Source: a virus. Taken from it: a stretch of DNA of 64,000 nt. The first letter of the stretch is position 1; every line of letters begins with the position of its first letter. Made by a program: the position numbers and the translations under genes. The stretch spans positions 62,001-126,000 of IMG/VR virus record IMGVR_UViG_3300042863_002243. The stretch is one strand, 5' to 3'. Below are positions 2,406-63,226 of the stretch, piece after piece. The notes below the pieces were generated by a model that saw nothing but the letters and a program-made list of their open reading frames with translations, made no database searches and had not been told where the DNA came from.

Positions 2406-2695
2406 TAACATTCATCTATTAATTTAGCCAATTTTATATCCTTTTCAGTTATTATATCTCCTGCATCATGAGTTGATAACTTGAGAGATATTTTGTTATA
2501 AATCCAATTAATTTCGGGATGATGTTTTTCCTCTTCACATATTATTGAAATCTCATTTATAAATTTTAAAGCCTGTTTAAAATCCTGAAAATTAAAATTT
2601 CTTTCCAGTTTATTATAAACTTCTGTCCAATCGGAATTTGATTGGAATTTTTTATATGTCTTTAGATTTATCATATTATTAAAATTATATAACAT
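2402..2695 (-). CDS. Pterin-4a-carbinolamine dehydratase (PCD/DCoH-like)
   Basis: This 97-residue protein has the length and signature of 4a-hydroxytetrahydrobiopterin dehydratases. It shows a central E-E-K-H-H-P-E-I, then a Y-N spaced as expected, then L-S-T-H-D-A-G and a final L-A-x-L-I-D. The two adjacent histidines, the proline and the THD histidine match the known active-site pattern. The family dehydrates 4a-hydroxytetrahydropterin during pterin recycling. The gene overlaps the end of the upstream minus-strand gene by 11 bases, suggesting translational coupling. A second in-frame ATG 21 bases downstream (at 2674) is an alternative start. Why a phage carries it is unclear; support of a host or phage pterin-dependent hydroxylase is only inference. 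Confidence 0.88.
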   Translation of the reverse strand: MLYNFNNMINLKTYKKFQSNSDWTEVYNKLERNFNFQDFKQALKFINEISIICEEEKHHPEINWIYNKISLKLSTHDAGDIITEKDIKLAKLIDECY

Positions 2696-4205
2696 ACCGT
2701 GAAACTAATCCTTTATACCAGTTTATTTCGCCTTGATCTATTTTATAGTTTTCTCCCTTTATAAGTTGGTTATCTTTAGTAAATTCGGGACTTTCAAAAT
2801 ATGAAATTAACTCTCCTGGTTTAATTGCCTCTATTTTATCAATACAATCGCTGTTAATTAATGTTATTTCAACGCTCTGACCGTTCACTGTTTCATTTCC
2901 TGAGTGATAACCAGACATTCCGCAAATACTAGCTAATTTGTATTCTCTTTGGTCTATATCGCTATCGCTTTTATGGAAAAACTTAGTTCCTTTTTTTAGT
3001 GTTATTTTATAAACTGTTGGAAATAAATTTTGAGATAAATTCGGGATAGGCCTATCAGCATCTAATCCGAATCTCAAATAGCAATAATAGAAAGCATATG
3101 GTATATTATTAGTTACATACATAACTTTTCCTGAAACCCTTTCCCTATATCCTCCTTCTTTATTGATAAGGTATGATACATTTTCTAAATTAAGATTATT
3201 AAAGTTTTGCCCAGAATAAACAATATTTCCACCAATTAATCCATCTTCACTTTTTATGGCCACTTTAGTATCTTCAGTTCCTATTTCAACATATTCCATT
3301 CCATTCACATAATCCAAATTATTCATTGTCATATCCAATGCCATCTCTGATATTGTTTTATCTTTCAGATTTTCCTCAGCCCATGTTAATAAGTCCATAC
3401 CCCATCCCGAAATTTGAAAGTTGGGTTTATCTGGTATTATAGACATACCCCGTGACTTATTGAAGAGTTCTTCGTATCTACTTTGGACTTTATCATAGAG
3501 TTCAACTGTATTTACAAATTCGCCCGAGTTCCATTCAAAGCTTTTTAATTTATGATTTAACTCAATAGTATAAGCCTTGAATCTCTTAAATATGTCTGTT
3601 TCTAATATTTTTTTGTTTCCATCAGAAGCATTAAATTTATCTATAAAAGCATATGTGTCTCTGTTCTTAAAATTAGGACTCCCGTCGATACAGCTAAAGA
3701 ATTTATTAAACTCTTCTTTTTTTGATTCAAAATCATTTTTTATAAATGAAGAAATTTTGTTATATTTAGCGACATCTTCATTATATTTTTCTAACTCTTT
3801 AGTTAGTTTATTTTTTTGAACTACTTCTTTTATATTATCATATTCTCTAATTATGTATTGATAGAGTGAGCTAATATACATAATTAGATATTCGGCATCA
3901 TCTGATGATATTTCTCCTAGTTCTGAATACCAATCACCTGAATCGAGTATGGTTTTAAATTTCTCACGTAACCTAATAGCTATGTTCGAGCCTCCTTGAT
4001 TATTTTTATCTATTTTTTGCTGTAGTCTATCGGAAAATTCTTTCTTTTCTTCGTCATTTAATCCCTCGTAAATGTCTCTTAATAGCTTTACCTGAGCATT
4101 TATTTCTTTTCTATCGGCTCCGGTAAAGCTCCTAGCTATTTTACTAAAAATGCCTTCATTAACATTACTATCGATAAAATCATTAAAACTTTTTATTCTT
4201 TTCAT
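2685..4205 (-). CDS. Large protein with capsid-targeting-like N-terminus
   Basis: I do not recognise a family for this 506-residue protein. It begins MKRIKSFNDFIDSNVNEG, matching the recurrent phage N-terminal tag and containing a V-N-E/G site that a T4-type prohead protease could cut. The following segment (GIFSKIARSF) resembles the one after the tag in both MoxR proteins of this window. Residues of about 30-260 are charged and helical, probably coiled-coil; the last 150 residues are beta-rich. By analogy T4 packages the ADP-ribosyltransferase Alt with such a tag, and the C-terminal part could be an effector domain, but no catalytic motif was identified. It sits between phoH and the PCD gene on the minus strand. 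Confidence 0.6.
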   Translation of the reverse strand: MKRIKSFNDFIDSNVNEGIFSKIARSFTGADRKEINAQVKLLRDIYEGLNDEEKKEFSDRLQQKIDKNNQGGSNIAIRLREKFKTILDSGDWYSELGEISSDDAEYLIMYISSLYQYIIREYDNIKEVVQKNKLTKELEKYNEDVAKYNKISSFIKNDFESKKEEFNKFFSCIDGSPNFKNRDTYAFIDKFNASDGNKKILETDIFKRFKAYTIELNHKLKSFEWNSGEFVNTVELYDKVQSRYEELFNKSRGMSIIPDKPNFQISGWGMDLLTWAEENLKDKTISEMALDMTMNNLDYVNGMEYVEIGTEDTKVAIKSEDGLIGGNIVYSGQNFNNLNLENVSYLINKEGGYRERVSGKVMYVTNNIPYAFYYCYLRFGLDADRPIPNLSQNLFPTVYKITLKKGTKFFHKSDSDIDQREYKLASICGMSGYHSGNETVNGQSVEITLINSDCIDKIEAIKPGELISYFESPEFTKDNQLIKGENYKIDQGEINWYKGLVSRYVI

Positions 4206-4214
4206 CTAAAATAA

Positions 4215-4916
4215 TTATAAAGTGTATTCCCTATAAACCTCTAGCATTGCGGGTACAATAGGGTGTCTATGGTTTTTCTTAAGAGTTATCACATTAACCC
4301 CTTCAACTCTTGCAGCAAGGGTATTCATAAAGTCAAGCCCGGAGTCTTTTTTATTTTTTAAATCTATTTGAGATGTGTCTCCACATATTATCATTTTAGA
4401 ACCAATTCCAAGTCTTCCTAGTACCATTTCCATTTGGCTCATTGTTACGTTTTGAGCTTCATCTACAATCACACAAGAATTAACTAGAGTTCTACCTCTC
4501 ATGAAGGGGAAAGGTAAAATTTCTATAATTCCTTCACTAAGTAATTTTTCAATTTTAGTTTTGTCATAGACCATTTCTAAATTAGCGTAGATAGGAGCTA
4601 ACCATGGATCCATTTTTTCTTTTAAATCCCCTGGAAGAAATCCTATATCCTCTTTTGCTACTGTGGGTCTAGTAATAACTAGCTTTTCAATCTCCCTATT
4701 AAATAGCATATCTAGAGCTATTTGCACTGCTAGAAGCGTTTTACCTGATCCAGCTGCTCCTTTAAGAACACTAACTGGATTGGCCAAAATAATAGCTTTA
4801 GCTTCTTTTTGCTCTTCGTTTAGATTAATTTTAAATTTAATAGGATTTTTAGGTTTCCTTTTTTGAGTCCAATTGCTTCCTGTAGTCATAGATTTTTTAT
4901 TTTTTTTAAGAAACAT
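4215..4916 (-). CDS. phoH: PhoH-like P-loop ATPase
   Basis: The 233-residue product has a Walker A motif GAAGSGKT near residue 57, an I-T-R-P-T-V segment, the Walker B VIVDEAQN and the later CGDTSQIDL, which together define the PhoH family of RecD/helicase-like ATPases. Length fits the single-domain phage version. PhoH is widespread in large phages and is often used as a phage marker; its actual role (RNA handling or stress response) is not settled. The gene starts 84 bases from the divergent virion gene at 5001, so the two share an intergenic promoter region. It is the first gene of a three-gene minus-strand cluster. Confidence 0.95.
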   Translation of the reverse strand: MFLKKNKKSMTTGSNWTQKRKPKNPIKFKINLNEEQKEAKAIILANPVSVLKGAAGSGKTLLAVQIALDMLFNREIEKLVITRPTVAKEDIGFLPGDLKEKMDPWLAPIYANLEMVYDKTKIEKLLSEGIIEILPFPFMRGRTLVNSCVIVDEAQNVTMSQMEMVLGRLGIGSKMIICGDTSQIDLKNKKDSGLDFMNTLAARVEGVNVITLKKNHRHPIVPAMLEVYREYTL

Positions 4917-4972
4917 ATTCTATGTTTCTTTCTTTAATGATTGTCCTGTCTTTTTCTATTGTAAGTAATACA

Positions 4973-4983
4973 GGATATATATC
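4973..4983 (+). promoter_or_regulatory. GGATATATATC box, candidate late promoter
   Basis: The box lies 18 bases before the ATG at 5001 in the divergent region between phoH and the virion module. Its core GATATATATC is a perfect palindrome, so it could in principle also be read toward phoH. It belongs to a recurrent family of GATATATA boxes in this window. An A-rich AAAGGAAAA before the ATG may serve as ribosome binding site. Confidence 0.45.
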
Positions 4984-5000
4984 AAAAAAAGGAAAATCAA

Positions 5001-5924
5001 ATGGCAATCACAATTACTGAAATTCTTGGAACCGATTCAATTTCAGGTTCTAGATTAACTATCAATGCTAACTTTTTGTTGCTTGAGAATGCTTATAATG
5101 ATTTAGAAAACACATTTAATATAAACGTGTTGACTGGATCACTTGACGTATCTAGCGCAACAAATGGGCAAATTAAAGCAAAATCATTACTGGCTAACAG
5201 CTTAGTTATGCCTGCTTCTGGTTCACCTACTATACAACTATATGGAACAGGAGCTAGTGGAGGTTACATTATAGCTTCTAGCACAGTTGTAGGAGCTACT
5301 GGTATATTCTCTAATGTTCTACAATCAAACACTTTATCTGCTTCAGGAACAGCTACATTTGGAGCTACTGCAACATTTAATAGTGTGCTAAATGTGGAAG
5401 GAAGAATGAGTATCGGAGCGTCCGGTAATTTTGTTAACACTAACAGAAAAGCCACCGTGGGTTCTTCTACTGCTTTTCCTAATACACCAGGAGCAGGTGT
5501 TACTGGAACTTACTCAACCCCTTACCAATTAACTTTAACGGAAAATGTTATTTATATACAATCAAATTATGTTTCGAGTGCGTCAGCTGATGCTGGATTT
5601 ACTACAGGTTTTTTCTTTTACGCTACAACAGGCGCTGGAGCAACTGCTTCTGATATTCCTGCAGGTTATACTGTAACATTAGTCGACACAGCAACTTCCG
5701 CAGGAAAAATTGCTACTGGAGTTACTGGGGGTACTTCTCCTTATTATACTGGATTTTCAACTGGTGGAAGTGAAGGTGATTACACGGATCCTTTTATACA
5801 AACATCGGGAAATCCTTATAAAACATCATTAACTATTATGTGGGAGCCAAGAATAGGTCAATCAGGAGCTTCACAAAAAGGATCTTGGGTGGTTGTTAAC
5901 TCTACATCTGGATTTACATTCTAA
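5001..5924 (+). CDS. Putative tail fibre or baseplate appendage protein
   Basis: This 307-residue protein is rich in Gly, Ala, Ser and Thr and has repeated short beta-strand patterns typical of phage fibre shafts (residues about 60-150), followed by a compact C-terminal domain ending in SWVVVNSTSGFTF. The N-terminus, with I-N-A-N-F-L-L-L-E-N-A-Y, resembles the start of the collagen-bearing fibre protein at 17287 (I-N-Y-N-Y-D-Q-I-L), suggesting a shared attachment segment. No enzyme motif is visible. It is the first plus-strand gene of the virion module and is preceded by a GATATATA box, consistent with late expression. The exact structural position is not known. Confidence 0.5.
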   Translation: MAITITEILGTDSISGSRLTINANFLLLENAYNDLENTFNINVLTGSLDVSSATNGQIKAKSLLANSLVMPASGSPTIQLYGTGASGGYIIASSTVVGATGIFSNVLQSNTLSASGTATFGATATFNSVLNVEGRMSIGASGNFVNTNRKATVGSSTAFPNTPGAGVTGTYSTPYQLTLTENVIYIQSNYVSSASADAGFTTGFFFYATTGAGATASDIPAGYTVTLVDTATSAGKIATGVTGGTSPYYTGFSTGGSEGDYTDPFIQTSGNPYKTSLTIMWEPRIGQSGASQKGSWVVVNSTSGFTF

Positions 5925-28927: not shown

Positions 28928-29527
28928 ATGAGAAACATCAAAGAATATAGAGATTTCTGTATTAATGAATCTGAAGAATTATTCTTTAGCAGACACTTAG
29001 GAAATGATGCTAAGACATATGGTGATAGGGCTAAAAATCATTATAACCTACCTGAAGATGCTAGTATATTACAAAAAACTCAAAGGTTCTTTGGGTACAT
29101 CGAAGACAAGCTAAACAATATTGCACAAGCAGGACAAGATATAACAAGACAAAATAGAGCTGTTAGAGGCGGGGGTTTAAATACTGGATATGAAATGTTA
29201 TTCGGTCTTCCGGCTATTGTACCAGGAGTACTTAAAAGAGTATTCGGACCTACTAAATATGAGATTTCTAAAAGAGTACCAGCTAAGGATGAAGATGTAG
29301 ATGTTGAGTTCATGAGACACACAAATGAGGATTTTGCTAAAAATGAACTACCGAACATTAAAACTGAGCAACAATTAGAAGATAATATCACCGAGCTTTA
29401 TCAAAAAGCTCAGGTTAATAAAGGACAGGTACCTGCTCTAGATGATATAGGAATGAATAGAGCTTACCTTTATTATACAAAACAAAAAAATCCTAATCAA
29501 CCTATATTCCAACCAAATAACGCATAA
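28928..29527 (+). CDS. Unknown protein with capsid-targeting-like tag
   Basis: The 199-residue product begins MRNIKEYRDFCINESEE, fitting the recurrent N-terminal tag with an I-N-E/S site. Beyond it no family was recognised. Residues about 75-115 are small and hydrophobic (GYEMLFGLPAIVPGVLKRVF), possibly an amphipathic or membrane-active helix. The C-terminal half is charged and helical. It is preceded by a GGATATATAAAA box and followed 4 bases later by another late-type gene. If the tag is cleaved as in T4, the mature protein would start at about residue 15 and reside inside the head. Confidence 0.55.
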   Translation: MRNIKEYRDFCINESEELFFSRHLGNDAKTYGDRAKNHYNLPEDASILQKTQRFFGYIEDKLNNIAQAGQDITRQNRAVRGGGLNTGYEMLFGLPAIVPGVLKRVFGPTKYEISKRVPAKDEDVDVEFMRHTNEDFAKNELPNIKTEQQLEDNITELYQKAQVNKGQVPALDDIGMNRAYLYYTKQKNPNQPIFQPNNA

Positions 29528-32779: not shown

Positions 32780-33616
32780 ATGAAGAAGATATTAAGCTTT
32801 AAAGATTTTTCACTATACGAATATCAAAAATTTGACAACTCACTATACAATAAAATTAACGAAGCTACATTTACGGACGAGGTGGAGAAAAGAAAATATG
32901 ATCCGGTAGCTTTCAAAAAAATGAGGGCTGCAGTTTTCTTTCTAAACGCACAATATCCTTTCTTTGGAGGTCTTTTGTCTAGATTAATCATTAGAGAAAA
33001 TAGAGGTATAAAAACAATGTGTACTGATGGAGTAAGTATTCACTACAGCCCAGGATTTGTACATGAACATACTGATGATGAAATAATGTGGGTAATAGCC
33101 CATGAGGTTTTACATTGTGCTTTATTACATTTCCTAAGAATGCCAGGAAAGGATTCTAAAACAGTAAGTATATGGAATTATGCTACAGATTATGCTTTAA
33201 ATCAGATGCTTACACCAGTCGATGAATCAAATCCAGGTAATCCTAAGCCTAGCGAAAAGAGAGGAGACTCTATAGGTAAAATGCCAAAGGGAGCATTATA
33301 TCCTGGATGTGGAAGAGTTTCTTACGATAAAGAATTTGTTGGATTATCTGCTGATAGCATTTATGGTATTTTAATTAAAAATGGATTTCAACCAGATCCG
33401 GAAGATTCGCAAGCTGTTAATCCTCCACCACCTCCACCACCACCAGCTCCTCCACAGATACCTGTAGTCGGAGATATTATATTCGACCCAGCTAGTGGTA
33501 ACTACGGTGTGGTAAATAGCGTAGATGAAGATAATGATTCAGTGGATTATGATCCTATACCAAAATCTAAGGTTCCTGAATATATTAGAAAAAAATACGA
33601 GCAAGACAATTTATAA
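32780..33616 (+). CDS. DUF2201-type HExxH metallopeptidase-like protein, copy 1, tagged
   Basis: The 278-residue product begins MKKILSFKDFSLYEYQKF (tag with L-Y-E). Its core contains the zinc-binding motif H-E-V-L-H-C-A-L-L-H (residues 108-117) followed by WNYATDYALNQML, the pattern of the putative metallopeptidase domain that in bacteria is paired with a VWA-like domain (DUF2201). After a proline-run linker (PPPPPPPPAPP) it ends in a small beta domain with VVGDIIFDPASGNYGVV. A paralogue with the same order of parts is at 62294. The VWA partner follows after 9 bases and a MoxR ATPase comes next, giving a complete three-gene cassette. Proteolytic activity is unproven. Confidence 0.78.
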   Translation: MKKILSFKDFSLYEYQKFDNSLYNKINEATFTDEVEKRKYDPVAFKKMRAAVFFLNAQYPFFGGLLSRLIIRENRGIKTMCTDGVSIHYSPGFVHEHTDDEIMWVIAHEVLHCALLHFLRMPGKDSKTVSIWNYATDYALNQMLTPVDESNPGNPKPSEKRGDSIGKMPKGALYPGCGRVSYDKEFVGLSADSIYGILIKNGFQPDPEDSQAVNPPPPPPPPAPPQIPVVGDIIFDPASGNYGVVNSVDEDNDSVDYDPIPKSKVPEYIRKKYEQDNL

Positions 33617-33625
33617 AATCGTAAT

Positions 33626-34609: not shown

Positions 34610-34614
34610 AAATA

Positions 34615-34624
34615 GATATATAAG
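34615..34624 (+). promoter_or_regulatory. GATATATAAG box, candidate late promoter
   Basis: The box sits in the 38-base gap before the first MoxR gene, 24 bases ahead of its ATG, and is followed by AAGGATG at the start codon, a fair ribosome binding site for this genome. Confidence 0.48.
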
Positions 34625-34647
34625 AAATAAAATAAGAAATATTAAGG

Positions 34648-36237
34648 ATGAAAAAAATCTATAACTTTAAAGAATTCGTAAATGAATCTTACAATGTAGA
34701 CGAAGGGGTATTATCTAATATCGGTAGCAAGATTTCACAATGGGCTAAACAGCTTATGACCGCAGTAAGAAATGGCATTATTAGAATGATCTCATCTGGT
34801 CCTAAAAAGGGATTACCTGCTTATGTGTTATTTAATTCAGATGAAGGATCTATCTCAGATCAAGTTGAAAAATTCTATCGCGGAACACCTTATTATGATA
34901 TGAACAATATCAATAATCCTTCCGTAGCAAACGAGGCAGTGATTCCTTTGGAATGGGATAGAGAGGATGATGTACCTAATTCACTTCCCGAAGAAATAGA
35001 ATCAGATATTAGAAGAAGTCTTAAAGCTTGTTTATCCATTGCAGATCAAATGGATGCCACAACTGATATGGACGAAAAAGCAAGATTACAAAGGGAATTA
35101 AGAAAAGTTAAACCATATTTTATTTATGGAGCACCTGGTATTGGTAAAACACAAATCATAGCTAAAATATGCGATGAGCTTGGGTTAAACCTATTGAATT
35201 GCGATGGATTAAGTGCAGAACCAGTAGACTTTGCTGGTGTACCTAAAGTGGTAGATATTGAAGCTCCATCAGCAGAAAATCCATTAGGTAGGGGGGTTAC
35301 AAGATCTAACGTAAGTGCGGATATTTTACCATATGATAACGGAAAAGGTGGAAAAGGGGGTATCTTATTTATTGATGAATTCAACCGTATGCCTGTTGAA
35401 GTACAAAAGATATTCTTATTATTAGCTCAGCAAAGAAGACTTGGTGTTAATTATGACATGCCTAATAGATGGTATATCGTAGCAGCAGGAAATAGAAAAG
35501 TTGATGACCCTAAGGGTGGTATTGTTGAAATGGGATCTGCATTACAGGATAGATTTGAGATTGTCAATCTTATTACTAATCCAGCATCAATGAGAAAATA
35601 TGTAGAGACTACTCCTGGATTATCTGATATATTCCTACCAGAACTTCTTGATTTCTTAGATTTTGATGCTAGTTGGTTCCACATGAATGATCCAACTGCT
35701 AAGAAATTAAAATACCCTACTCCTAGAGCTTGGGAAGATGCTTCTAGAGCAGTTAGAAGGGTTCTTCAAGAGTATGAACAAAAAGGAATATCAGAAGTGC
35801 CTCATAGCGTATTAGCAAGAGAATTTCAGAAGAACGTAGGTAGAGATGCTGCTGTAATGTTCTTAGATTTCTATAAGATAGCTCAGCAGATCCCAGTTAA
35901 AGAATTATCGCTTCCTTTTACTGATCCTGATAGAGCTCCTATTCCTAGTGAATACCAAGGAAAAACTAAAAAATCAGGTACTACTAATAGAACTGATTAT
36001 GAGCACGCTTTATTCACTGCTGTAATTAGAAAAAGCACGGAATTACCAAAATTAACAAGCACTGAGTCTTGTAACTTTTCAAAATGGTTAAGAAGAGTTA
36101 ATGCACCAGAGATGGGAGCAATGGCAATCACATCATTCTTCCAAAAACATCCTCATTTATTAGAAGATTATGCAACTATGGAATGTTTAGGACCATTAGC
36201 TGATCAATGGGGAGCAGAAATTGGAGTTCAATTTTAA
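34648..36237 (+). CDS. MoxR-family AAA+ ATPase, copy 1, capsid-targeting-like tag
   Basis: The 529-residue product begins MKKIYNFKEFVNESYN and then has a second acidic-glycine site, V-D-E-G-V-L-S-N-I. The AAA+ core shows Walker A GAPGIGKT at 161-168, Walker B LFIDEFNR with Asp243-Glu244, a sensor-type AAGNRK, and a C-terminal lid. This matches MoxR ATPases, which act with VWA proteins. The N-terminal 100 residues, including S-G-P-K-K-G-L-P, align with those of the paralogue at 60798. It closes the cassette metallopeptidase-VWA-MoxR. ATP-driven remodelling is expected; the substrate is unknown. The tag suggests packaging in the head. Confidence 0.88.
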   Translation: MKKIYNFKEFVNESYNVDEGVLSNIGSKISQWAKQLMTAVRNGIIRMISSGPKKGLPAYVLFNSDEGSISDQVEKFYRGTPYYDMNNINNPSVANEAVIPLEWDREDDVPNSLPEEIESDIRRSLKACLSIADQMDATTDMDEKARLQRELRKVKPYFIYGAPGIGKTQIIAKICDELGLNLLNCDGLSAEPVDFAGVPKVVDIEAPSAENPLGRGVTRSNVSADILPYDNGKGGKGGILFIDEFNRMPVEVQKIFLLLAQQRRLGVNYDMPNRWYIVAAGNRKVDDPKGGIVEMGSALQDRFEIVNLITNPASMRKYVETTPGLSDIFLPELLDFLDFDASWFHMNDPTAKKLKYPTPRAWEDASRAVRRVLQEYEQKGISEVPHSVLAREFQKNVGRDAAVMFLDFYKIAQQIPVKELSLPFTDPDRAPIPSEYQGKTKKSGTTNRTDYEHALFTAVIRKSTELPKLTSTESCNFSKWLRRVNAPEMGAMAITSFFQKHPHLLEDYATMECLGPLADQWGAEIGVQF

Positions 36238-36240
36238 TAG

Positions 36241-36513
36241 ATGAAAAAATTCAGTGAAATAATGGAAGGTCATACATCAAAGTATGACCTTTCTAATAGT
36301 AAGAGATTATTAGAAGAAGCCATGGAAAAAATAAACATGGTTAGAGAGGAGTTTTCTAAATTAGAAGATGCTGATGTGACTGAGTTAGAAGAGGGATGGA
36401 ATCTAATAGATAGATACTACGGTAATTTAACCAAGGGACAAATATTCAAAAGAAGAAAGAAAGATCAATACATACCTAATACATCCGCTAAAATTCCGGA
36501 GAGAGGTTTTTAA
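36241..36513 (+). CDS. Small tagged protein after MoxR
   Basis: The 90-residue product starts MKKFSEIMEGHTSKYD, a short form of the tag with I-M-E/G. The rest is a helical, acidic segment (LLEEAMEKINMVREEF) and a basic C-terminus (FKRRKKDQY). It begins 3 bases after the MoxR stop and is probably co-translated with it. No family was recognised. It resembles T4 internal proteins in size and charge, which is the main hint at function. Confidence 0.5.
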   Translation: MKKFSEIMEGHTSKYDLSNSKRLLEEAMEKINMVREEFSKLEDADVTELEEGWNLIDRYYGNLTKGQIFKRRKKDQYIPNTSAKIPERGF

Positions 36514-36529: not shown

Positions 36530-37063
36530 ATGAAACACATTAAATTATTTGAAAATTTCTTAAATGAAGATGGATACGGAAGAGACTTCTTTGTAAAAAA
36601 GAAAGACGGTAAACTTTCTCAATATTTTTTTAAGATTGAGGGAGAAGAGGAGGATCTAGGATTTGTAATAAATCTTGGTAAACTATCTAGAAATATCACC
36701 ATAGAATCTGCAGAGAATAGTTATGCTGTTCTTTCCGTAGAGCCTATCAGAGAATCTGTGATGGATGATTTTTTAGTGAAAGATTCGGATTTTAAATCAA
36801 GAGAAGATGATCAATTCACATTGACTAAATCTGAATATATGAGATTCTATAAGATTGTTGGTGAATGTATAAAAGATTACTTACAATCTAATCCTAAGGT
36901 TTCTATTATTTATGATGAGGTACCTTTAAATCTTGATATGGATTTTGAAGAGTATTCAGATAAAGTTAAATCTCTTATGGATGAATGGAGCTACGGTAAA
37001 TGGAGCTCACAAGAGGGAGCAACAAAGAAAACATTAATTTATTCTAGAAGAGACCATGATTAA
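36530..37063 (+). CDS. Unknown tagged protein
   Basis: The 177-residue product begins MKHIKLFENFLNEDGYG, a clear tag with L-N-E/D. Downstream are a beta-rich part (LSQYFFKIEGEEEDLGFVIN) and two acidic helical segments; the C-terminal part includes VSIIYDEVPLNLDMDF. No family was recognised. It overlaps the following gene by 8 bases. The mature protein after cleavage would be about 163 residues, similar in size to T4 internal head proteins. Confidence 0.52.
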   Translation: MKHIKLFENFLNEDGYGRDFFVKKKDGKLSQYFFKIEGEEEDLGFVINLGKLSRNITIESAENSYAVLSVEPIRESVMDDFLVKDSDFKSREDDQFTLTKSEYMRFYKIVGECIKDYLQSNPKVSIIYDEVPLNLDMDFEEYSDKVKSLMDEWSYGKWSSQEGATKKTLIYSRRDHD

Positions 37064-37373
37064 TAATATTCTTTCATATGATGAATTTATATTAGAATCT
37101 AGGATACCTATAGCTTGGGCTAAGCCTTCAGTAACAACTACTAAGGTACTTTCATTCATAGGAGAGAAAGAAAAAGTAACCAAGAAAGAACTATTAGAAT
37201 TCTTAGATAGTATACCAGAAGATGCTTCAGGTAAGAAACCCAGTATGTCTTGGGTTAGAAATCAGAAGAAATATATCAAGTATAAAATACAAGAAGAAGA
37301 TGCTAACCACTTTGAATTGACCGCTTTAGGCAAGAGAGTTTTAAAATCTTTCAGGATTAATGAAACAAAATGA
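37056..37373 (+). CDS. Small tagged protein, possible winged-helix fold
   Basis: The 105-residue product starts MINNILSYDEFILESRIP, a tag with I-L-E/S. The rest has the helix and wing-like pattern VLSFIGEKEKVTKKELLEFL and HFELTALGKRVLKSF, which looks like a winged helix-turn-helix, although no family match can be proven. A DNA-binding protein delivered with the genome would be a reasonable hypothesis. It overlaps the preceding gene by 8 bases. Confidence 0.45.
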   Translation: MINNILSYDEFILESRIPIAWAKPSVTTTKVLSFIGEKEKVTKKELLEFLDSIPEDASGKKPSMSWVRNQKKYIKYKIQEEDANHFELTALGKRVLKSFRINETK

Positions 37374-38888: not shown

Positions 38889-39470
38889 ATGAATCATATA
38901 CGATCATTTAGAAGTCTTTTTGAAGGAGTAAGTGCAGTAACAACTAATTGGTATATTGTAGATAACGAAGCTTCTTTTGATAAGATAAAAGGTAATGGAT
39001 ATATGCTTTTTAGCCAGGTAGGCATAATGACTATCGTTTATGTTAAACCTAAAGTAGAGGAAGAAGCTAGATTGGATTTTTATTTTGATAAAGCAAAATC
39101 ACCAGATAAGAAAAGCATTTGTGTTTGTAAGATAATAGCTAATGACGGTAAAGTTAGGAGCTCTAAAAATTTTGATGATGTAACTACAGATAATGTTTGG
39201 GACATAACAGCTACGTTTTTTGATTATTGTGATTTAGAGAAGTCTGAAAAATCAATTAGAGATAAATTCATGATGGGATATTCTAAGACAATAAAGGATA
39301 TCTTTAAAGGTGATACAGAAAGAATACCCGGATCATTTAAAACATATTTGAATTATATGAAAGAATGGGCAAAGAAATCTATAGAGGGTGTTTCTTTAGA
39401 TAAGAATGAAGATAATTACGATTTCCGAGAGATGATTAAAGAATTTATTGCTTTCTTTAAAAAATCATAA
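38889..39470 (+). CDS. Unknown tagged protein
   Basis: The 193-residue product begins MNHIRSFRSLFEGVSA, a tag with L-F-E/G similar to the short T4 Alt-type leader. The middle is a beta-rich domain (WYIVDNEASFDKIKGNGYMLF; MTIVYVKPKVEEEARL) containing a conserved-looking KSICVCKIIANDGK. The C-terminal third is helical and ends EFIAFFKKS. No family was recognised. It starts 1 base after the previous stop and ends convergently with the minus-strand gene, with a 6-base overlap of the two ends. Confidence 0.5.
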   Translation: MNHIRSFRSLFEGVSAVTTNWYIVDNEASFDKIKGNGYMLFSQVGIMTIVYVKPKVEEEARLDFYFDKAKSPDKKSICVCKIIANDGKVRSSKNFDDVTTDNVWDITATFFDYCDLEKSEKSIRDKFMMGYSKTIKDIFKGDTERIPGSFKTYLNYMKEWAKKSIEGVSLDKNEDNYDFREMIKEFIAFFKKS

Positions 39471-39770
39471 TTTTTCTTTCTGTCTCAATTGGATAAGATA
39501 ATTTTCCCAGATTGATCCTCCTTCTTTTATACCAGGTTTAGCGCTCTTGTGTAACTTAGCTCTTTGTGACATTATATACGATGCTATAATAGCATCTTTT
39601 AATTCTATTTCTTTTTTATCCAACATTTCTTGTAATCTTCTTATTGATTTTAGAGCTTCGTCCCTATTTGCAAATCTTAATCCTTTAGGATAGCTTTGTC
39701 CTGAGTCGAAAGGTTTAATATCATTTAGATAAATCTGTTCGAATAATTTGAAGGTTAGAATTTTTTTCAC
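39465..39770 (-). CDS. Small tagged protein on minus strand
   Basis: The 101-residue product starts with GTG (39770) and reads MKKILTFKLFEQIYLND, a tag with L-F-E/Q. The body is helical and charged (LKSIRRLQEMLDKKEIELKD; IMSQRAKLHKSAKPGIKEGG) without a recognised family. Upstream on its strand is GAATATATAATAAG, a version of the late box. It is one of only four minus-strand genes. It lies divergently from the polymerase N-terminal gene with 54 bases between them. Confidence 0.5.
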   Translation of the reverse strand: MKKILTFKLFEQIYLNDIKPFDSGQSYPKGLRFANRDEALKSIRRLQEMLDKKEIELKDAIIASYIMSQRAKLHKSAKPGIKEGGSIWENYLIQLRQKEKL

Positions 39771-42731: not shown

Positions 42732-45167
<2,436 letters not shown>

Positions 45168-47810: not shown

Positions 47811-48458
47811 ATGAATAGACCTAAGAAGCTTAGCAATTTTAAAGAATTCGTAAAAGAATACGGAGATATAGATGGAAAAGAAGATACCAAAAAAACCCCA
47901 TGTATAATTTTAGCAGGACCTCCGGGATGTGGTAAGGGAACACAAGCTAGAATTATAGCCAAAGGTATGAGATGGAAACACATTTCAACTGGGGATATAT
48001 TAAGGGATTCTGATAATAAAGAGATCAAGAAGTTAATGAAAACTGGTAATCTTCTTCCTGATGAGATTGTAGGTAAAGAGCTTATAGATTATCTTAAAAA
48101 ATTAACTAAACATAGCGATCCTAAGGGATATATTTTTGACGGATATCCTAGAAATCTTCAACAGAAGGCTATATTTGACGAGATTTGTAGAATTAATAAT
48201 ATCTCATTAGAATATGTTTTCTTTTTAAATGTCGCAGAGAAGATATTAAGGGAAAGAATAAAAGAAAGAAGTAAATCTTCGGGAAGATCTGATGATAAAA
48301 ACGAGGAAGCATTCCAAATTAGAATGGATGAATATAATGAACAGACGTTACCTATGATAGAATCTATGAGAAAAGGAGGAGGATTTTTGGAAATATCAGG
48401 GGAAAATAAATTGGATGATATTACTAAGCTGATATTTAATAAAATTAATGAAATTTAA
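47811..48458 (+). CDS. adk: Adenylate kinase with capsid-targeting-like tag
   Basis: The 215-residue product begins MNRPKKLSNFKEFVKEYGD, a version of the tag with V-K-E/Y, and the kinase starts only after about residue 28. P-loop GPPGCGKGT, the STGDILR substrate loop, FDGYPRN and RIKERSK are the standard adenylate kinase motifs. The lid is short and has no zinc site. It would interconvert AMP, ADP and ATP. It follows nrdA by 12 bases (AGATATAAAAAAAATG), so metabolic coupling is natural, but the added leader suggests that the enzyme may be packaged in the head. Confidence 0.9.
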   Translation: MNRPKKLSNFKEFVKEYGDIDGKEDTKKTPCIILAGPPGCGKGTQARIIAKGMRWKHISTGDILRDSDNKEIKKLMKTGNLLPDEIVGKELIDYLKKLTKHSDPKGYIFDGYPRNLQQKAIFDEICRINNISLEYVFFLNVAEKILRERIKERSKSSGRSDDKNEEAFQIRMDEYNEQTLPMIESMRKGGGFLEISGENKLDDITKLIFNKINEI

Positions 48459-49785: not shown

Positions 49786-50271
49786 ATGAGAATTTTAAAA
49801 TTTTCCGAATTCCTTAATGAGCAATCAGTTTATAATACAGGAGTCCCTTTATACAGAGGCACAAGTTTTGAGCCAGAAAGAACTATTAAAAGAAATCAAT
49901 TAATTTCTGAATTAAGAAGTCTTTTAACTCAAGTAATGAATGGTACTCTTTCCGAAATATCTTTAGTAGCAGAAATACCTACACAAGGTAAAAATGCTCC
50001 ACAATATTTGAAAGATATTTATTCTGAAATGGGATACAATCCAGGTAAAGATATGGAAGATGAGTACGATGAAGAAAACGACACTTATCTTGGTAACAGA
50101 GACAGAACTGGAGATGAACCATCTACAAACATATTTGTAGATTCTGAATTTTTAGTTAAAGATGTAGATGAAGCTAGAAATGTTATTATAGCAATTCCTT
50201 ATTCATTAAAAAAGAAAAACATCTTAGTTGAACTTACTCCAGAAATGATTGATGAAGCATTCATTAAATAA
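49786..50271 (+). CDS. Unknown tagged protein
   Basis: The 161-residue product begins MRILKFSEFLNEQSVYN, a clear tag with L-N-E/Q. The middle has short hydrophobic strands (LYRGTSFEPERTIKRNQLIS; EISLVAEIP), followed by an acidic segment (DMEDEYDEENDTY) and a C-terminal FVDSEFLVKDVDEARNVIIAIP. The start L-Y-R-G-T with acidic context is faintly similar to ADP-ribosyltransferase entry motifs, but the rest does not support that. It is followed after 6 bases by the DUF192-like gene. Confidence 0.5.
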   Translation: MRILKFSEFLNEQSVYNTGVPLYRGTSFEPERTIKRNQLISELRSLLTQVMNGTLSEISLVAEIPTQGKNAPQYLKDIYSEMGYNPGKDMEDEYDEENDTYLGNRDRTGDEPSTNIFVDSEFLVKDVDEARNVIIAIPYSLKKKNILVELTPEMIDEAFIK

Positions 50272-52511: not shown

Positions 52512-53264
52512 ATGATTTTAAGATTAAGCGATTTTGTTAATGAGCAGGATTCGAATATTCCTGATGGAAGCGAGGGAACTCAAGCTCCCGTTAAGAGCTA
52601 TGCAGGTAAACTAAAAATAAACTGGGATATGCCAGACCTTGCTGAGGAAATATCTCATTATGACGATAAAGCTAAATTGGAATTCTACCAGCATAATATT
52701 ACTATTGGTAATAAAGATATAGGTAAAGTTGCTGCTAGATCCACCAAGTTTTTTAAATATATTAATGAGCCATTTAAAAAAGGACACATGGAAACAATTC
52801 CTATTGTTTCTGAGGATGGATTTGATGTTAATAGTATTCAGAATTTAATGGCTTATGAGTTTGATAACATCATTGCTGGAGCATATGGTAGATCTTACGG
52901 AGATGTTCTAATAAAAATATCAGATGATCTTAAAAGAAAAGGCACTTTATCATTGCCTGCTCCTATTGTGATTAAATTTATAAATTTTGGAGAGACAAGA
53001 ACATCTTCAGAATACAGCTATTATCTTTTTTCTGGTAATAGGATAGCTAACTTAGCATTACAATATAATATTCCACTAAGAGCTTTAGTATTAGATTTAG
53101 TTCCTTCAAGAAGAGACGTTAGAGAATTTGCACAAAAATCAGGTGCTACTACAGATCCGGTTAAATTCAAAAAGCTTCTTAGAAGAGAAACTGGTAAAGA
53201 AACTCTTGACGATCTTAATGCTAGAGAAAGATTTAAAATTATACAATCTCTTAAAGATTTCTAA
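52512..53264 (+). CDS. ParB/sulfiredoxin-like domain protein with capsid-targeting-like tag
   Basis: The 250-residue product begins MILRLSDFVNEQDSN, a tag with V-N-E/Q. Residues about 95-200 contain T-I-P-I-V-S-E-D-G-F, A-P-I-V-I-K-F and Y-L-F-S-G-N-R-I-A-N-L-A-L-Q-Y-N-I-P-L-R-A-L. This is reminiscent of the ParB-type nuclease/sulfiredoxin fold, where G-N-H-R or G-x-x-R is followed by A-A and V-P-V; the His usual in many ParB domains is absent. The C-terminus is helical and basic. It could bind or cut DNA or act on nucleotides. Its tag implies head packaging, which makes the possible DNA role notable. Confidence 0.5.
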   Translation: MILRLSDFVNEQDSNIPDGSEGTQAPVKSYAGKLKINWDMPDLAEEISHYDDKAKLEFYQHNITIGNKDIGKVAARSTKFFKYINEPFKKGHMETIPIVSEDGFDVNSIQNLMAYEFDNIIAGAYGRSYGDVLIKISDDLKRKGTLSLPAPIVIKFINFGETRTSSEYSYYLFSGNRIANLALQYNIPLRALVLDLVPSRRDVREFAQKSGATTDPVKFKKLLRRETGKETLDDLNARERFKIIQSLKDF

Positions 53265-55867: not shown

Positions 55868-57361
55868 ATGGACAAAAAATTATTTACGTTTAAACAATTT
55901 ATAAACGAGCAAGACGATGCAATACCATCGAGTGCAACTGGATCACCAGATACAGGAAAACCTGAGACTGAAAGAGAAGCAAAATCCAGAATTGCAACGG
56001 GTATAATCAAAGGTCTATTTGGTGAAAATGTTGGACTTACTGGAGGTGTGGATTCTTTTATAGACCAAACCAAGGAAGTTAAAGAATCTTTACCGTATAG
56101 AGGATGTGGTGCTAGCGAGCCTTATAAATTAGAGAAAAATCCTCTTTCTGTAATGACTATTAAAATACTTCTTAATTATCTTCAGGAAAAAAAAGTGGGA
56201 GATTATAGTAGAATTATAACAGAATTGAATGAGAAAAGAGCAGTAATAATAGGAATAAGAAATAAGCTTGAAATAAAGAAGGAGACATCAAATCAGGATA
56301 GATTCACGGATGCTCTTTATTTTATTCCTGGTAATGCTAAAGATGGATCTGATGTTGTGAGTGCCACTGGACCTACCGGACCTACTGGATCTACTGGACC
56401 TGCACCAGTTAAAGAAACACCTGTTAAAGATAAATCTGTATTTGATAGAATAAAGGACAAAAAGAATGAATCTATGGAAGATAGATTAAATTCTATTAAC
56501 TACGTGATTGAATCTGGTGTTTTTACTTTCGAAGAATATTATTCATTGAACGAAGAAAAGAATCAAATATTATCAATTCTAAACGAGGACGATGACGACA
56601 ATCCAAGTAGTTGGTTTGCCCCTGGTGCTTTTAAAAGAAGAATTGAAAAGGCTAAAAAAGATGCAGAGGATGCTAAAAACAAAAATAATCCTACGGGACC
56701 AATTGTACCAACTGGACCAACTGGACCAACTGGACCAATACCACCAGCAAGTCTTGGAGATAAAATAACTCCATATCAAATAACAACTGTACCTAGTTTA
56801 GCATACTACGGAAAGAAACCAATGAATCCTAAAGGTGTTGGTGTTAAACTTCCAGGAGATACCCTATACATTCTTAAAGAAAGCTCCTTAGGTAGTGGCA
56901 ATAAATATAAAATGATGGTAGAGGGTGAACCAATTAAAGTTGGAAGATACCCTATCGGAGTAACTAAATTTGAAAGTTACAAACCAGCTGAGGTTTACAC
57001 TGAATCTTGTGGAATGCAAATACACAGGTCGTCTACGAAAGGTGTTGGTATTTGTGTGGGACCTTGGTCAGCAGGATGTCAAGTATTTGCTGACAATCAA
57101 GAATGGCAGGATTTCATATCTAAAGCTGAGAAAGAACAGATGAATGCTACTAAATTTTATTACGCATTAATACAATTAGATGATATTCCAAAAGAGGTTA
57201 TGGACGATGCAATGAAAGGCCTTGTTTATCAAGGATCTGTAGATCTTGCTTCAACAAACCCTACTGGAAGTACTGGAAGTACTGGAACTACCGGATCTAC
57301 GGGAACTACAGGAGCTAATAAAAAAGCAAGAGTACTTACTAACTTCGATAATATCTCTTAA
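55868..57361 (+). CDS. Tagged L,D-transpeptidase-like protein with collagen-like linkers
   Basis: The 497-residue product begins MDKKLFTFKQFINEQDDA, a tag with I-N-E/Q. Residues about 50-160 are helical. G-P-T-G linkers follow at about 169-178 and 277-292, and a third, G-S-T-G-S-T-G, lies near 467-480. The region 300-440 resembles a YkuD/L,D-transpeptidase catalytic core: G-M-Q-I-H-R-S-S with His386, then W-S-A-G-C-Q-V-F with Cys404. Such enzymes act on peptidoglycan cross-links. A head-packaged wall-active enzyme could help genome entry, but a late lysis role is also possible. Confidence 0.65.
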   Translation: MDKKLFTFKQFINEQDDAIPSSATGSPDTGKPETEREAKSRIATGIIKGLFGENVGLTGGVDSFIDQTKEVKESLPYRGCGASEPYKLEKNPLSVMTIKILLNYLQEKKVGDYSRIITELNEKRAVIIGIRNKLEIKKETSNQDRFTDALYFIPGNAKDGSDVVSATGPTGPTGSTGPAPVKETPVKDKSVFDRIKDKKNESMEDRLNSINYVIESGVFTFEEYYSLNEEKNQILSILNEDDDDNPSSWFAPGAFKRRIEKAKKDAEDAKNKNNPTGPIVPTGPTGPTGPIPPASLGDKITPYQITTVPSLAYYGKKPMNPKGVGVKLPGDTLYILKESSLGSGNKYKMMVEGEPIKVGRYPIGVTKFESYKPAEVYTESCGMQIHRSSTKGVGICVGPWSAGCQVFADNQEWQDFISKAEKEQMNATKFYYALIQLDDIPKEVMDDAMKGLVYQGSVDLASTNPTGSTGSTGTTGSTGTTGANKKARVLTNFDNIS

Positions 57362-59581: not shown

Positions 59582-60757
59582 ATGGAAGAAATAGATTACA
59601 TGTCAATGAGCTTAGAAGAGCTCAATCAAAAACTTTCGGAGTATCAAAAAAAATCTTCGGATTTCTATAATACTGAACAAGGTATTAAGCTAACACTTAA
59701 CAGTATATACGGAGCGACTGGGAATCAGTATTTTGCTTTGTTCAATACAGATGTTGCAGAGAGTGTTACATTACAAGGCCAGGACATTTGGAAATTTGCT
59801 GAGAAGATAATAAACAGGTATTTCAATGATATGTGGCATCTTGATACGGAGCTTCACGAAAAAATGGGAGTTCGTAATGTCAGAAAAATAACATTAGACT
59901 TTATTATATACGGAGATACAGATTCCAATTATATCAATCTAGGAGCTGTTATGGATTCTTGTGAATTTGATTCAGATCTAGAACCATTTGAATTTGTAAA
60001 AAGACTTAATGAATTTAGACTTAAAGAATACATTAAGAAATGCTATGACATCTATTCTGAAAAATGGGGCACAGATAACTATCAGGATTTTGAGCTAGAG
60101 AGTTTATCATATGCTGGTATATTCTTGGGTAAAAAGAAATATGTATTACATATAGCTTGGCAGGATCCTAATAAGGATTTATTTCCTAGGCTTTCTAAAG
60201 TTAAATCGACTGGTATCGAATTAGCTCAAGGTGGTACTGCTCCTTTCGCTAGAGAGAAACTTACGTTCTTATTACAGCATATTTTCGAGAAAGGTAAAGC
60301 TTTTGATATTAGAGAATTTGTAAAGATCCTTAAGAATATAAAATCGGAATTTAAGGTACAAAGCCCAGATCAAATATCTGTAGGAACTTCTGTTAATAAT
60401 ATAGAGAAATTCATTGTAAACGACACAACAAAATTCGAAGTTGCAAAAGGATGTCCAATGCACGTAAGAGCAGCAGGATATCACAACTATCTTCTTAATA
60501 ATTCCAAGCATAAAGTTAAATACAGCTTAATCAGATCATCTGAGAAGATTAAGTACTATTATGTTAAGGTAAACAACGAGAGAGAGAATAATGTATTTGG
60601 ATATCTTAACGGAGCTTATCCCTATGAGCTAGCTCCCCCCGTAGATTTTGACGAACAATTCAATCGAGTAATTTTAGATCCAATAAATAGATTCATTGAA
60701 GCTATGGGATACTCTCCTTTATCACCCAACCTACTTCTTGTAAGAGCTTTGTTTTAA
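59582..60757 (+). CDS. 43B: Family B DNA polymerase, C-terminal half (motifs B and C), gp43-like
   Basis: The 391-residue product starts at a fingers-type helix (SLEELNQKLSEYQKK), then has motif B in T-L-N-S-I-Y-G-A-T-G-N (Asn40), motif C Y-G-D-T-D-S (Asp112 and Asp114) and the K-K-K-Y-V motif (FLGKKKYVLHIAW). It continues through a thumb-like region to the end. It lacks exonuclease motifs and motif A, which are in the protein at 39825. The start is 1 base after the clamp-like stop. No intein is seen. The two chains together equal a T4 gp43-sized polymerase, as in the known split gp43 of some Aeromonas phages, but here about 18 kb apart. Confidence 0.93.
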   Translation: MEEIDYMSMSLEELNQKLSEYQKKSSDFYNTEQGIKLTLNSIYGATGNQYFALFNTDVAESVTLQGQDIWKFAEKIINRYFNDMWHLDTELHEKMGVRNVRKITLDFIIYGDTDSNYINLGAVMDSCEFDSDLEPFEFVKRLNEFRLKEYIKKCYDIYSEKWGTDNYQDFELESLSYAGIFLGKKKYVLHIAWQDPNKDLFPRLSKVKSTGIELAQGGTAPFAREKLTFLLQHIFEKGKAFDIREFVKILKNIKSEFKVQSPDQISVGTSVNNIEKFIVNDTTKFEVAKGCPMHVRAAGYHNYLLNNSKHKVKYSLIRSSEKIKYYYVKVNNERENNVFGYLNGAYPYELAPPVDFDEQFNRVILDPINRFIEAMGYSPLSPNLLLVRALF

Positions 60758-60768: not shown

Positions 60769-60780
60769 GGATATATAAAA
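60769..60780 (+). promoter_or_regulatory. GGATATATAAAA box, candidate late promoter
   Basis: The box lies 18 bases before the ATG of the second MoxR gene, after a T-run, and equals the box at 28899. Confidence 0.5.
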
Positions 60781-60797
60781 GGATCTAAAAAAATTAA

Positions 60798-62297
60798 ATG
60801 AAAAATAGTAGAATAAAAAACTTCAATGATTTTGTTAATGAATCTTACAATCCGGAGCTTAACGAAGGTTTCTTTTCCAGTATAGCTAATCTTATAAAAA
60901 AAGTTGGTGGCTGGGCAGGAGAAATGATCAAAGCAATAGGACAGGGTTTAATTAAACCAATACCTTCTGGACCAATGAAAGGTATGCCTGTAGCAATGTT
61001 ATTCTTACCTGAAAATGGGCCTATCTATCAGCAAATGTTGAAATATCAGCAAGGGATTAATCCTATAATGGAAGCAAGAATACCTTTAGAATACACAGGT
61101 GAAGACCAGAGTGTTAGAAACATTTCAGCTGAGCAATTAAAGAATGACGTAGTTAAATTATATAGGAGTAAAGACAGAGGGGGAAGAGCTAAACCCATCT
61201 TTATTTATGGAGCACCTGGTATTGGTAAGACTGAAATAGTCGGACAAGCAGCAGATGAGCTTGGTGTACCTGTTATGAAGTTGGATCTTCAATTTATGAA
61301 TCCGGAAGATTTCTTAGGAATACCTAGTAGACATGATATAACTCCTGTTGAGGTCGAAGACGGTAAAGTTACTAATTTTGGTAAAGGATTCACTAGAGCA
61401 AATCCCCCTGCATTATTACCACCAGATAATGGTAAAGATAATAGAGGTGGTATCATATTTATGGATGAGATGAACAGAGCTAATAAAGCAGTTCTAAACT
61501 CTATCATGCAATTCGTACAAAAAGGAGAAGTTGGGCCTTACAAATTACCAGACAAATGGGTTATTGTTGCAGCGGGTAACAGACCAGAAGAAGCGGAAGG
61601 CGTAGCAGATTTTGACTTTGCACTTGCTGACCGTTTCACTATTAAGAACTATGTTCCTACAATTGAAGGATATGCTTCATGGGCAGATAAGAACGAAAAA
61701 ATTCTGCCTGAACTTGTAACATTCTTAACATTTAATCAGGAGTATTTCCACAATTTAGATGCTGATAAAAAATCATTAAACTACCCAACACCTAGATCCT
61801 GGACAGATGGAGCTTTAATTCTTCATGATGAGATAACAGATCAAAGAGTTAATACTTGGAGAGATATACCTAGAGAAGAAATTCTTAACATTTTCTATGA
61901 TCAAGTTGGGCCTCAAGCAGCTGGTAAATTTGTTGCTTATCTTGATATACTTAGAAAAGTTAGTGATACAGAGATGGATAATATGATTAACAATCCTGCA
62001 TCTGCTAAGATGGTTGCTGAAGCACAAGCACCAGGAGGTAAAAGTATCCTTTATGGGCTTATTGAAATGGTGATGAAAAGAGTAGATTCTTATTCTCCGC
62101 AAAGTCTTTATAATGTAATGGAGTACTTTAATAGATATAACGAATTAGAACCTCTTAGCTGGCTGTATAAAGATATTCTAGTAAGATACCCAGATTTTAG
62201 ATTTGGAGGTTCATCATCTACACCAGAAGATGAATTAAAACACAAAGCAGCTTTACTAGTAACTGGAGGAGCTAAAAGTAAAGGACTTCAACAATGA
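60798..62297 (+). CDS. MoxR-family AAA+ ATPase, copy 2, capsid-targeting-like tag
   Basis: The 499-residue product begins MKNSRIKNFNDFVNESYN and continues with L-N-E-G-F-F-S-S-I, parallel to copy 1 (34648). Walker A is GAPGIGKT at 138-145, Walker B is I-I-F-M-D-E-M-N-R with Asp223-Glu224, and a sensor A-A-G-N-R-P is present. The paralogues also share S-G-P-M-K-G-M-P near residue 55. Its TGA overlaps the ATG of the metallopeptidase-like gene (ATGA). The gene order here is MoxR-metallopeptidase-VWA, whereas copy 1 has metallopeptidase-VWA-MoxR. Substrate is unknown. Confidence 0.88.
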   Translation: MKNSRIKNFNDFVNESYNPELNEGFFSSIANLIKKVGGWAGEMIKAIGQGLIKPIPSGPMKGMPVAMLFLPENGPIYQQMLKYQQGINPIMEARIPLEYTGEDQSVRNISAEQLKNDVVKLYRSKDRGGRAKPIFIYGAPGIGKTEIVGQAADELGVPVMKLDLQFMNPEDFLGIPSRHDITPVEVEDGKVTNFGKGFTRANPPALLPPDNGKDNRGGIIFMDEMNRANKAVLNSIMQFVQKGEVGPYKLPDKWVIVAAGNRPEEAEGVADFDFALADRFTIKNYVPTIEGYASWADKNEKILPELVTFLTFNQEYFHNLDADKKSLNYPTPRSWTDGALILHDEITDQRVNTWRDIPREEILNIFYDQVGPQAAGKFVAYLDILRKVSDTEMDNMINNPASAKMVAEAQAPGGKSILYGLIEMVMKRVDSYSPQSLYNVMEYFNRYNELEPLSWLYKDILVRYPDFRFGGSSSTPEDELKHKAALLVTGGAKSKGLQQ

Positions 62298-63226
62298 TAA
62301 GAAAATTAAACGAGAATAAATATAAAACTGGCAAGATAATTACTAGTTTTTCTAATTATGTAAGGTTTATAAATGAATCCTATTCTTTTGATCCTGAAGA
62401 GGTTAATAGGAAAATTAAAAGAGTAATTCTATGGATAAACATCAATCAAGGATTCTACGGTGAATTACTAAGCCACGTAAATATATTCGGATCATCTAAT
62501 ATTGATCCTAAGACTATGTGCACAAACGGTAGGGATATTATATTCCATCCCGAATTTGTAATGAATCAGACAGAAGCAGCATTAAGGTTTGTTCTATGTC
62601 ACGAAATTCTTCATTGTATAGGAGATCATGGTAAAAGAAGAGAAAATAGGAATCCCCAAGGATGGAATATAGCTTGCGATTATGCTATAAATCCTCTACT
62701 CCAGGGAGAGACAGGATTCGAATGGCCAGTATCAGAGGACGGATCTAGAGCAGGTTTATATGATGCTAGATTTGAAGGAATGAGAGCGGAAGATATTTAT
62801 CAACAATTAGAAGATGAAGGTGCTCTTAATAAACTTATTAATGATCCTAATGTTAAAAAACAAACAGATACTGGTAGGGTAGAAGACGAGGATAAAGAAC
62901 AACCAGAGCCTGACTCTGATCTGGTTATACAAGAAGGTGATTTCCCTCAAGAGGATGAACCTGGAGATGAGCCTGGTGATGAGCCCGGAGATGAACCTGG
63001 TGATGAACCTGGAGAACCTGGTGACGAGCCTGGAGAACCTGGTGACGAGCCTGGAGAACCTGGTGATGAGCCTGGAGAACCTGGTGATGAGCCTGGAGAA
63101 CCTGGTGATGAGCCTGGAGATAATAAAAAACAATTACCTAGAGTTGGACAGAAAGTTATAACAAAAGAAGGAAAAGAAGGAACTATAACCAAAGTTTATC
63201 CTAATGGGGATATAGAAATTAGTTAA
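62294..63226 (+). CDS. DUF2201-type HExxH metallopeptidase-like protein, copy 2, tagged
   Basis: The 310-residue product carries the tag at residues 16-30 (ITSFSNYVRFINES, with I-N-E/S) behind a short Lys/Asn-rich extension. Zinc motif H-E-I-L-H-C-I-G-D-H lies at 103-112, then W-N-I-A-C-D-Y-A-I-N-P-L-L, matching copy 1. A long P-G-D-E-type linker (about 221-276) replaces the proline run of copy 1 and leads to the same kind of small C-terminal beta domain (VGQKVITKEGKEGTITKV). It overlaps MoxR copy 2 and is followed 5 bases later by the VWA gene. Peptidase activity is inferred from HExxH only. Confidence 0.75.
   Translation: MIRKLNENKYKTGKIITSFSNYVRFINESYSFDPEEVNRKIKRVILWININQGFYGELLSHVNIFGSSNIDPKTMCTNGRDIIFHPEFVMNQTEAALRFVLCHEILHCIGDHGKRRENRNPQGWNIACDYAINPLLQGETGFEWPVSEDGSRAGLYDARFEGMRAEDIYQQLEDEGALNKLINDPNVKKQTDTGRVEDEDKEQPEPDSDLVIQEGDFPQEDEPGDEPGDEPGDEPGDEPGEPGDEPGEPGDEPGEPGDEPGEPGDEPGEPGDEPGDNKKQLPRVGQKVITKEGKEGTITKVYPNGDIEIS
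62954..63120 (+). repeat. Tandem repeat encoding a PGDE linker
   Basis: A GATGAGCCTGGAGAACCTGG-like unit of 12 or 18 bases repeats about 10 times inside the metallopeptidase copy 2 gene. It encodes an acidic Pro/Gly linker. Open frames on the reverse strand over this array are artefacts of the repeat. Confidence 0.9.

Follow-up and report, generated by a model that had tools for sequence, protein, structure and literature searches.

The open-access literature, in the parts available to us, covers the capsid-targeting sequences (CTS) of phage T4, the inner bodies of phiKZ-type phages and an annotated fusion of protease and scaffold. As far as the available text of the mutational work on the T4 protein IPIII goes, positions 4 and 7 (Y and F of MKTYQEFIAE) control targeting while positions 8 and 10 (I and E) control cutting (PMC9026906), and T4 proteins bearing this tag are described as injected (PMC9391042, available in part). 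The annotation 'prohead core scaffolding protein and protease' is already in use (PMC9723584, available in part). Mahaphages, with genomes of 634, 636, 642 and 735 kb, have predicted Bacteroidetes hosts according to the accessible portion of PMC7162821. For Bacteroidetes phages or huge phages, no report of a large set of CTS-tagged proteins was found in the accessible parts of the open-access literature, a scope that leaves aside subscription papers and most preprints.

Here we analyse a 64,000-nucleotide stretch of viral DNA (the window; positions 62001-126000 of a 148,938-base virus contig), in which a first-pass annotation had recognized about 15 proteins with a T4-like capsid-targeting tag. 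Our results support that interpretation: the tags are quite probably T4-type CTS, through which cargo would be loaded into proheads and then trimmed by the protease. They also suggest that a large kit of proteins is packed in advance by this virus, as by its giant relatives, and is perhaps delivered into the cell with the DNA.

Tagged proteins in the window and on its contig

Open reading frames (ORFs) of the contig were called mechanically, and the whole contig was scanned along with the window for a strict motif, [FYL]xx[FL][VILC]xE (core form [FY]xxF[VIL]xE), and for a spaced motif that allows up to five residues between F and [LIV]xE. The strict motif occurs within the first 25 residues of 16 of the 153 contig ORFs, where 1.4 would be expected from its frequency elsewhere in the proteome and shuffled N-termini give 1.5 ± 1.2; the spaced motif occurs in 26 of 168 ORFs (1.5 ± 1.2 in shuffles). 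Among the contig proteins, F-x-x-F-[VIL]-N-E is confined to N-termini, with nine occurrences. A leave-one-out profile retrieved 20 of the contig genes at q ≤ 0.05. The tag of this phage has the form I-x-x-[FY]-x-x-F-[VIL]-x-E and is shared by about 25 otherwise unrelated proteins, as is typical for T4-type CTS. Nearly all strict tags have their predicted cut 11-17 residues into the protein; in some tags [LIV]xE is shifted or absent. At least 12 further tagged ORFs are located outside the window; the earlier count was too low because only the window had been visible at that stage.

The resemblance to MKTYQEFIAE that had been pointed out extends to the mutationally defined IPIII residues: column counts in this genome and three relatives show that the invariant tag columns [FY], F, [VIL] and E equal T4 positions 4, 7, 8 and 10, comprising the aromatic and F residues of targeting and the I/L/V and E residues of processing. 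In the T4 genome, used as a control, the two internal-protein ORFs with MKTYQEFIAE (100 and 193 aa) were recovered.

ORFs were found at all 15 positions named previously, and 12 of them hold as tagged (nine strict, three spaced). The nine with the strict motif, within their first 28 residues, all lie on the plus strand (a slash marks the predicted cut). They encode a MoxR-type AAA ATPase at 34648..36237 (MKKIYNFKEFVNE/S; PF07728, E 2e-6); a 177-aa protein without a Pfam match at 36530..37063 (MKHIKLFENFLNE/D); a 105-aa protein at 37056..37373 (MINNILSYDEFILE/S), whose 32% identical homologue in the environmental contig G006 is tagged too (MTNERHTLSFDEFINEE); an adenylate kinase at 47811..48458 (MNRPKKLSNFKEFVKE/Y; ADK, E 2e-34); a 161-aa protein at 49786..50271 (MRILKFSEFLNE/Q), which has the highest profile score; a 250-aa protein at 52512..53264 (MILRLSDFVNE/Q); a 497-aa protein at 55868..57361 (MDKKLFTFKQFINE/Q) with collagen-like linkers, no Pfam match and, judged by eye, a possible L,D-transpeptidase-like part; a second MoxR-type AAA ATPase at 60798..62297 (MKNSRIKNFNDFVNE/SYNPELNE/GFFSS; PF07728, E 5e-10); and a metallopeptidase (DUF2201_N) at 62294..63226 (YVRFINE/S at residues 22-28; PF13203, E 4e-21).

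Three others possess the I-x-x-[FY]-x-x-F core followed by [LIV]xE 1-5 residues further on, namely a 506-aa protein at 2685..4205 on the minus strand (MKRIKSFNDFIDSNVNE/GIFSKIARSF; profile q 0.04) without Pfam or PHROG matches, a 199-aa protein at 28928..29527 on the plus strand (MRNIKEYRDFCINE/S) with no family assignment and no match in the PHROG search, and the other DUF2201_N metallopeptidase at 32780..33616 on the plus strand (MKKILSFKDFSLYE; PF13203, E 2e-23), whose huge-phage homologue (LR756500, 200318) is tagged too. The remaining three are weak candidates, each non-significant when tested singly: 36241..36513 (+; MKKFSEIME/G) matches neither the strict nor the spaced motif, 38889..39470 (+; MNHIRSFRSLFE/G, start MNHIRSFRSLFEG) has a shortened motif, and 39465..39770 (-; GTG start; MKKILTFKLFE/Q, MKKILTFKLFEQ; profile p 0.05) keeps the targeting core with a shortened processing part.

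Pfam matches bear out the claim that enzymes of unrelated families are tagged, as this phage has two MoxR-type ATPases, two DUF2201 metallopeptidases and the adenylate kinase in its set, together with two OmpA-like proteins, a CHAP and a nucleotidyltransferase (both weak matches) and numerous orphans. Among ten core or tagged proteins searched against PHROGs, one had OmpA-like matches and the other nine had none. Tagged proteins of the relatives include a T4 RNA ligase 1 homologue, polyphosphate kinase 2, an HNH endonuclease, a HAD/PNK3P-type phosphatase, LicD, PAP2, leucine-rich and DUF285 repeats, and a DHH-like protein below the Pfam cut-off. Alignments with solved adenylate kinases begin only at query residue 23-34, many solved bacterial enzymes pairing their own residue 3 with query residue 32, and T4 RNA ligase 1, in one of its solved forms, aligns with the relative's enzyme from query residue 28; hence the tags are N-terminal additions before the enzyme.

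The tags avoid certain gene modules: none of the 63 tail, replication and glycan genes (modules assigned from homologies and gene position) is tagged, compared with 21 of 105 others (p 4e-5). Occurrences of the motif in the glycan gene 24031 and the RNA ligase 135723 are probably due to chance. A contig region of about 24 kb with sugar-synthesis and glycosyl-transfer-like genes (G000:12617-36511) has no tagged gene. Where two tags have a residue in common, 242 of 442 codon comparisons give identity and codon usage alone predicts 247, indicating that the likeness is kept at the protein level rather than by copied DNA; on this comparison we rejected shared DNA copying as the cause of the tags.

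Several other features of the region were observed. Two sets of MoxR ATPase, metallopeptidase and vWA-like genes are present (window 32780-36237 and 60798-64000), and in both the MoxR and the metallopeptidase are tagged; such a pair may possibly be a head-packaged chaperone or protease pair. A second candidate cut, [LV]NE/G[IF]F, appears in several tagged proteins (window 4126-4205 on the minus strand and 60798-60890; contig 1831-1920) and is followed by an amphipathic stretch (GIFSKIARSF, GFFSSIANLI), although as a statistic the second site [LV]NEG[FIL] after the tag is weak (7 vs 3.3). Tag-like words are found at the C-termini encoded by window 38072-38410 and 38414-38887 (DYREFISNKK and DYKSFLTNSKK), and a very acidic gp67-like protein at contig 9083-9739 has F-x-x-F words at both ends (SFEEFNS... 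RFDNFFN). The 801-aa collagen-like (GPTGETG)n protein at window 42762-45167 is overlapped on the same strand by a long artefact ORF in another frame, and the DNA polymerase is divided into two ORFs about 18 kb apart (window 39825-41231 and 59582-60757).

Protease-scaffold fusion and capsid protein

Peptidase_S77 had no match in the window's own contig, because this contig starts inside the gene for the gp23-type major capsid protein. The protease and capsid genes were therefore read from a second contig, which reaches 17.6 kb further left and whose overlap, checked over 18.6 kb and 2.4 kb, is 100% identical. There, Peptidase_S77 (PF03420, E 6.6e-12) and a scaffold are fused in a protein of 678 aa, and the gp23-type capsid gene follows directly. 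The first-pass annotation had named the lack of a gp21-like protease and scaffold in the full genome as grounds against its own proposal; with both present on the identical longer contig, these grounds fall away.

Key residues of the protease motifs GELDHP and SSRAAG are conserved across five phages, and the gp21-type protease of the array fusion retains the catalytic H73 and S128. The scaffold half comprises 13 YSEYLAENLDKNIS-type units in an array, spaced mostly by 14 residues and nearly all with [LI]xE. An aligned [LI]xE at the end of the N-terminal arm (for instance HSLNE/SAGAYN) is also found in capsid proteins of this clade and of related Bacteroidetes phages (this phage, G005, G006, LR756500, LR756502, PTm1 and MaF61); sites of this kind are present and conserved in the sequences of both scaffold and gp23-type capsid protein. 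An internal methionine occurs at a similar place in the fusion of three genomes; as a start for a separate scaffold it was rejected, since it has no clear ribosome-binding site. An AlphaFold2 model of the fusion (mean pLDDT 41, the array drawn as a helix) was unusable.

When the T4 heptad YQEFIAE was compared with all proteins, the scaffold array came out on top in four genomes and took third place in the remaining one of the five, and it was not the closest match to permuted heptads. The rank of the scaffold by each genome's own tag profile is moderate (6/168, 159/635 and 52/937), and gp22, the scaffold of T4 itself, is not conspicuous; for these two reasons we keep it as a hypothesis that the tag acts by resembling a scaffold unit.

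Based on these data, we propose that during prohead formation the aromatic pair would dock each tagged protein on an inner core built by the scaffold half of the gp21-type protease fusion. The protease would then cut after [LIV]xE in the capsid protein, scaffold and tags; scaffold pieces and tag peptides would exit, and the trimmed cargo would remain with the DNA and presumably be part of the virion. Upon infection, at least part of the cargo may enter the cell and act before phage gene expression. We infer injection into the host because of the T4 precedent and the enzyme content, and are less sure of it than of targeting and trimming.

Tags in related phages and alternative explanations

The fused protease-scaffold is 35-39% identical over most of its length to proteins of LR756500-504 and LR745206. 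Three related huge-phage genomes (238-642 kb) possess at least 20 tags each, with a consensus specific for each genome: about 20-27 in LR756500 (MKYI[KLQ][ES]Y[EKD][ED]F[LIV]xE), about 20-26 in LR756502 (I[KR][RKN][YF]xxF[IV][NK]E) and about 20-25 in G006 (MK[HN][IVL]xxF[ED]xF[IL]NE). Around 80 protease loci of environmental phages we counted 85 tagged ORFs against 16 expected. Where the gene is complete, most of these loci have both fusion and array; on many array-bearing contigs the nearest 10 kb are free of tags. Three good T4-like tags (MKNFFSFINEA, MKTFTCFINEA and MKTFFNFVNES) occur in the Chryseobacterium phage MA9V-1, and PAU, PTm1, MaF61 and Lak-B5 have a gp21-type protease and no tag excess. 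The metallopeptidase tag is kept in the LR756500 homologue (30-35% identity) and missing from those of LR756502 and Lak, a pattern that gain and loss of a module would give; the metallopeptidase itself was not found in twelve further relatives. Relatives with no tag excess, array-bearing contigs with no nearby tag and untagged homologues weigh against our explanation.

Two further arrangements were noted in these genomes. Fourteen ORFs of LR756500 (e.g. 11706, 13446, 124308, 197835, 313382 and 331856; L072, L078, L081, L087 and L088 are among them) end in a common C-terminal motif, NADDFGFFDN, and nine of them also have a strict N-terminal tag (p 1e-9), with near-tags in several more, so that they are doubly marked. 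In LR756502 the tagged RNA ligase 1 homologue (L135; 491256-492961) adjoins a tagged 145-aa ORF with which it shares the start MK(K)LHRYNSFI.

The tags could instead serve assembly only, docking proteins on the prohead core for head building, after which these would be digested or left behind rather than injected. Several tagged genes (contig 882-5519 and 9083-10727) do adjoin the capsid gene and have the appearance of core components, and the accessible part of PMC7824862 proposes a role in jumbo-phage virion assembly for MoxR together with a metallopeptidase-vWA partner. However, we consider this explanation unlikely, given that the adenylate kinase here and the RNA ligase 1, polyphosphate kinase 2 and HNH nuclease of the relatives have no obvious role in assembly, and that the T4 proteins with this tag are, in the text available, injected (PMC9391042). 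It seems less probable still that the N-terminal helix directs docking at a membrane, a replication site or a partner such as the sliding clamp, with [LIV]xE being incidental. The short amphipathic nature of the targeting core would fit such a role, as would the tags without a clean cleavage site, the cutting being a prediction from sequence; but no replication protein is tagged, a displaced [LIV]xE recurs a few residues later in the spaced form (in the strict motif E is fixed by definition), and YQEFIAE, unlike its permuted forms, ranks the scaffold array first in all but one of the five genomes, where the array comes third.

Clusters of tagged paralogues with near-identical starts in LR756500 and G006 could further suggest that one gene start was recently copied onto many genes and has no function. 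We give this hardly any credence, as codon differences among the tags of this phage match the codon-usage prediction, the tags occur on unrelated families, and they persist in homologues only 30-32% identical. Capsid targeting followed by trimming is thus our preferred explanation. A bolder version, which we regard as tentative and rather doubtful, is that large to huge phages use a swappable loading code: the core would be a polymer of tag-like 14-residue units, gain of one unit at the N-terminus would suffice for loading, and a single protease would dissolve the core and free the cargo, delivering dozens of first-strike counter-defence enzymes, with nucleotide and RNA-repair enzymes in the kit. 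The hosts of such a clade are probably Bacteroidetes.

Significance and comparison with known systems

If our interpretation is true, sequence alone would mark virion cargo among the hundreds of unknown genes of huge phages, a long-standing gap, and the tag scan would be applicable to any related metagenomic genome. A mechanism proven for a few T4 proteins would extend to about 20-30 per genome, pointing to enzymes packed beforehand as a kit (RNA ligase, kinases, ATPase-peptidase pairs) and suggesting a short portable tag to load proteins into large phage heads.

Like the inner-body (ejection) proteins of phiKZ and SPN3US, the set belongs to a large phage; theirs are head-packaged and trimmed after glutamate by a gp21-related protease, whereas here this is predicted. 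Most SPN3US propeptides are much longer, e.g. 124-127 residues in the available text of PMC5694885, in contrast to the 12-17 residue tag with [LIV]xE described here, and a long propeptide of the phiKZ type is not seen, the predicted cut lying 11-17 residues from the start. An S77 protease and scaffold in one ORF adjoining the capsid gene is shared with Bacteroidetes jumbo phages (PTm1 ORF-300, MA9V-1) and bS21 phages. The 14-residue YxxY[LIV]AE array was counted in the present clade and is absent from the descriptions of the PTm1, MA9V-1 and bS21 fusions in the portions available. Lak phages, placed in the same clade as Mahaphage by the accessible part of PMC7162821, have no excess of this motif. 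The Mahaphage clade (LR756501-504, LR745206) has a protease-scaffold 37-39% identical over 88-93% and at least 20 tags in LR756502, but its genomes are 634-735 kb and it has its own tag consensus. As for the T4 CTS (IPI-III, Alt; cut by gp21), the tags agree with it in their N-terminal position, length of 10-19 residues, aromatic and F three apart and [IL]xE cleavage site (MKTYQEFIAE compared with MKKIYNFKEFVNE here), and in being accompanied by an S77 protease and a gp23-type capsid. Unlike T4, which tags a handful of proteins, this phage has about 25, among them enzymes of unrelated families, and its protease and scaffold form one polypeptide, the scaffold being a tandem array of tag-like units.
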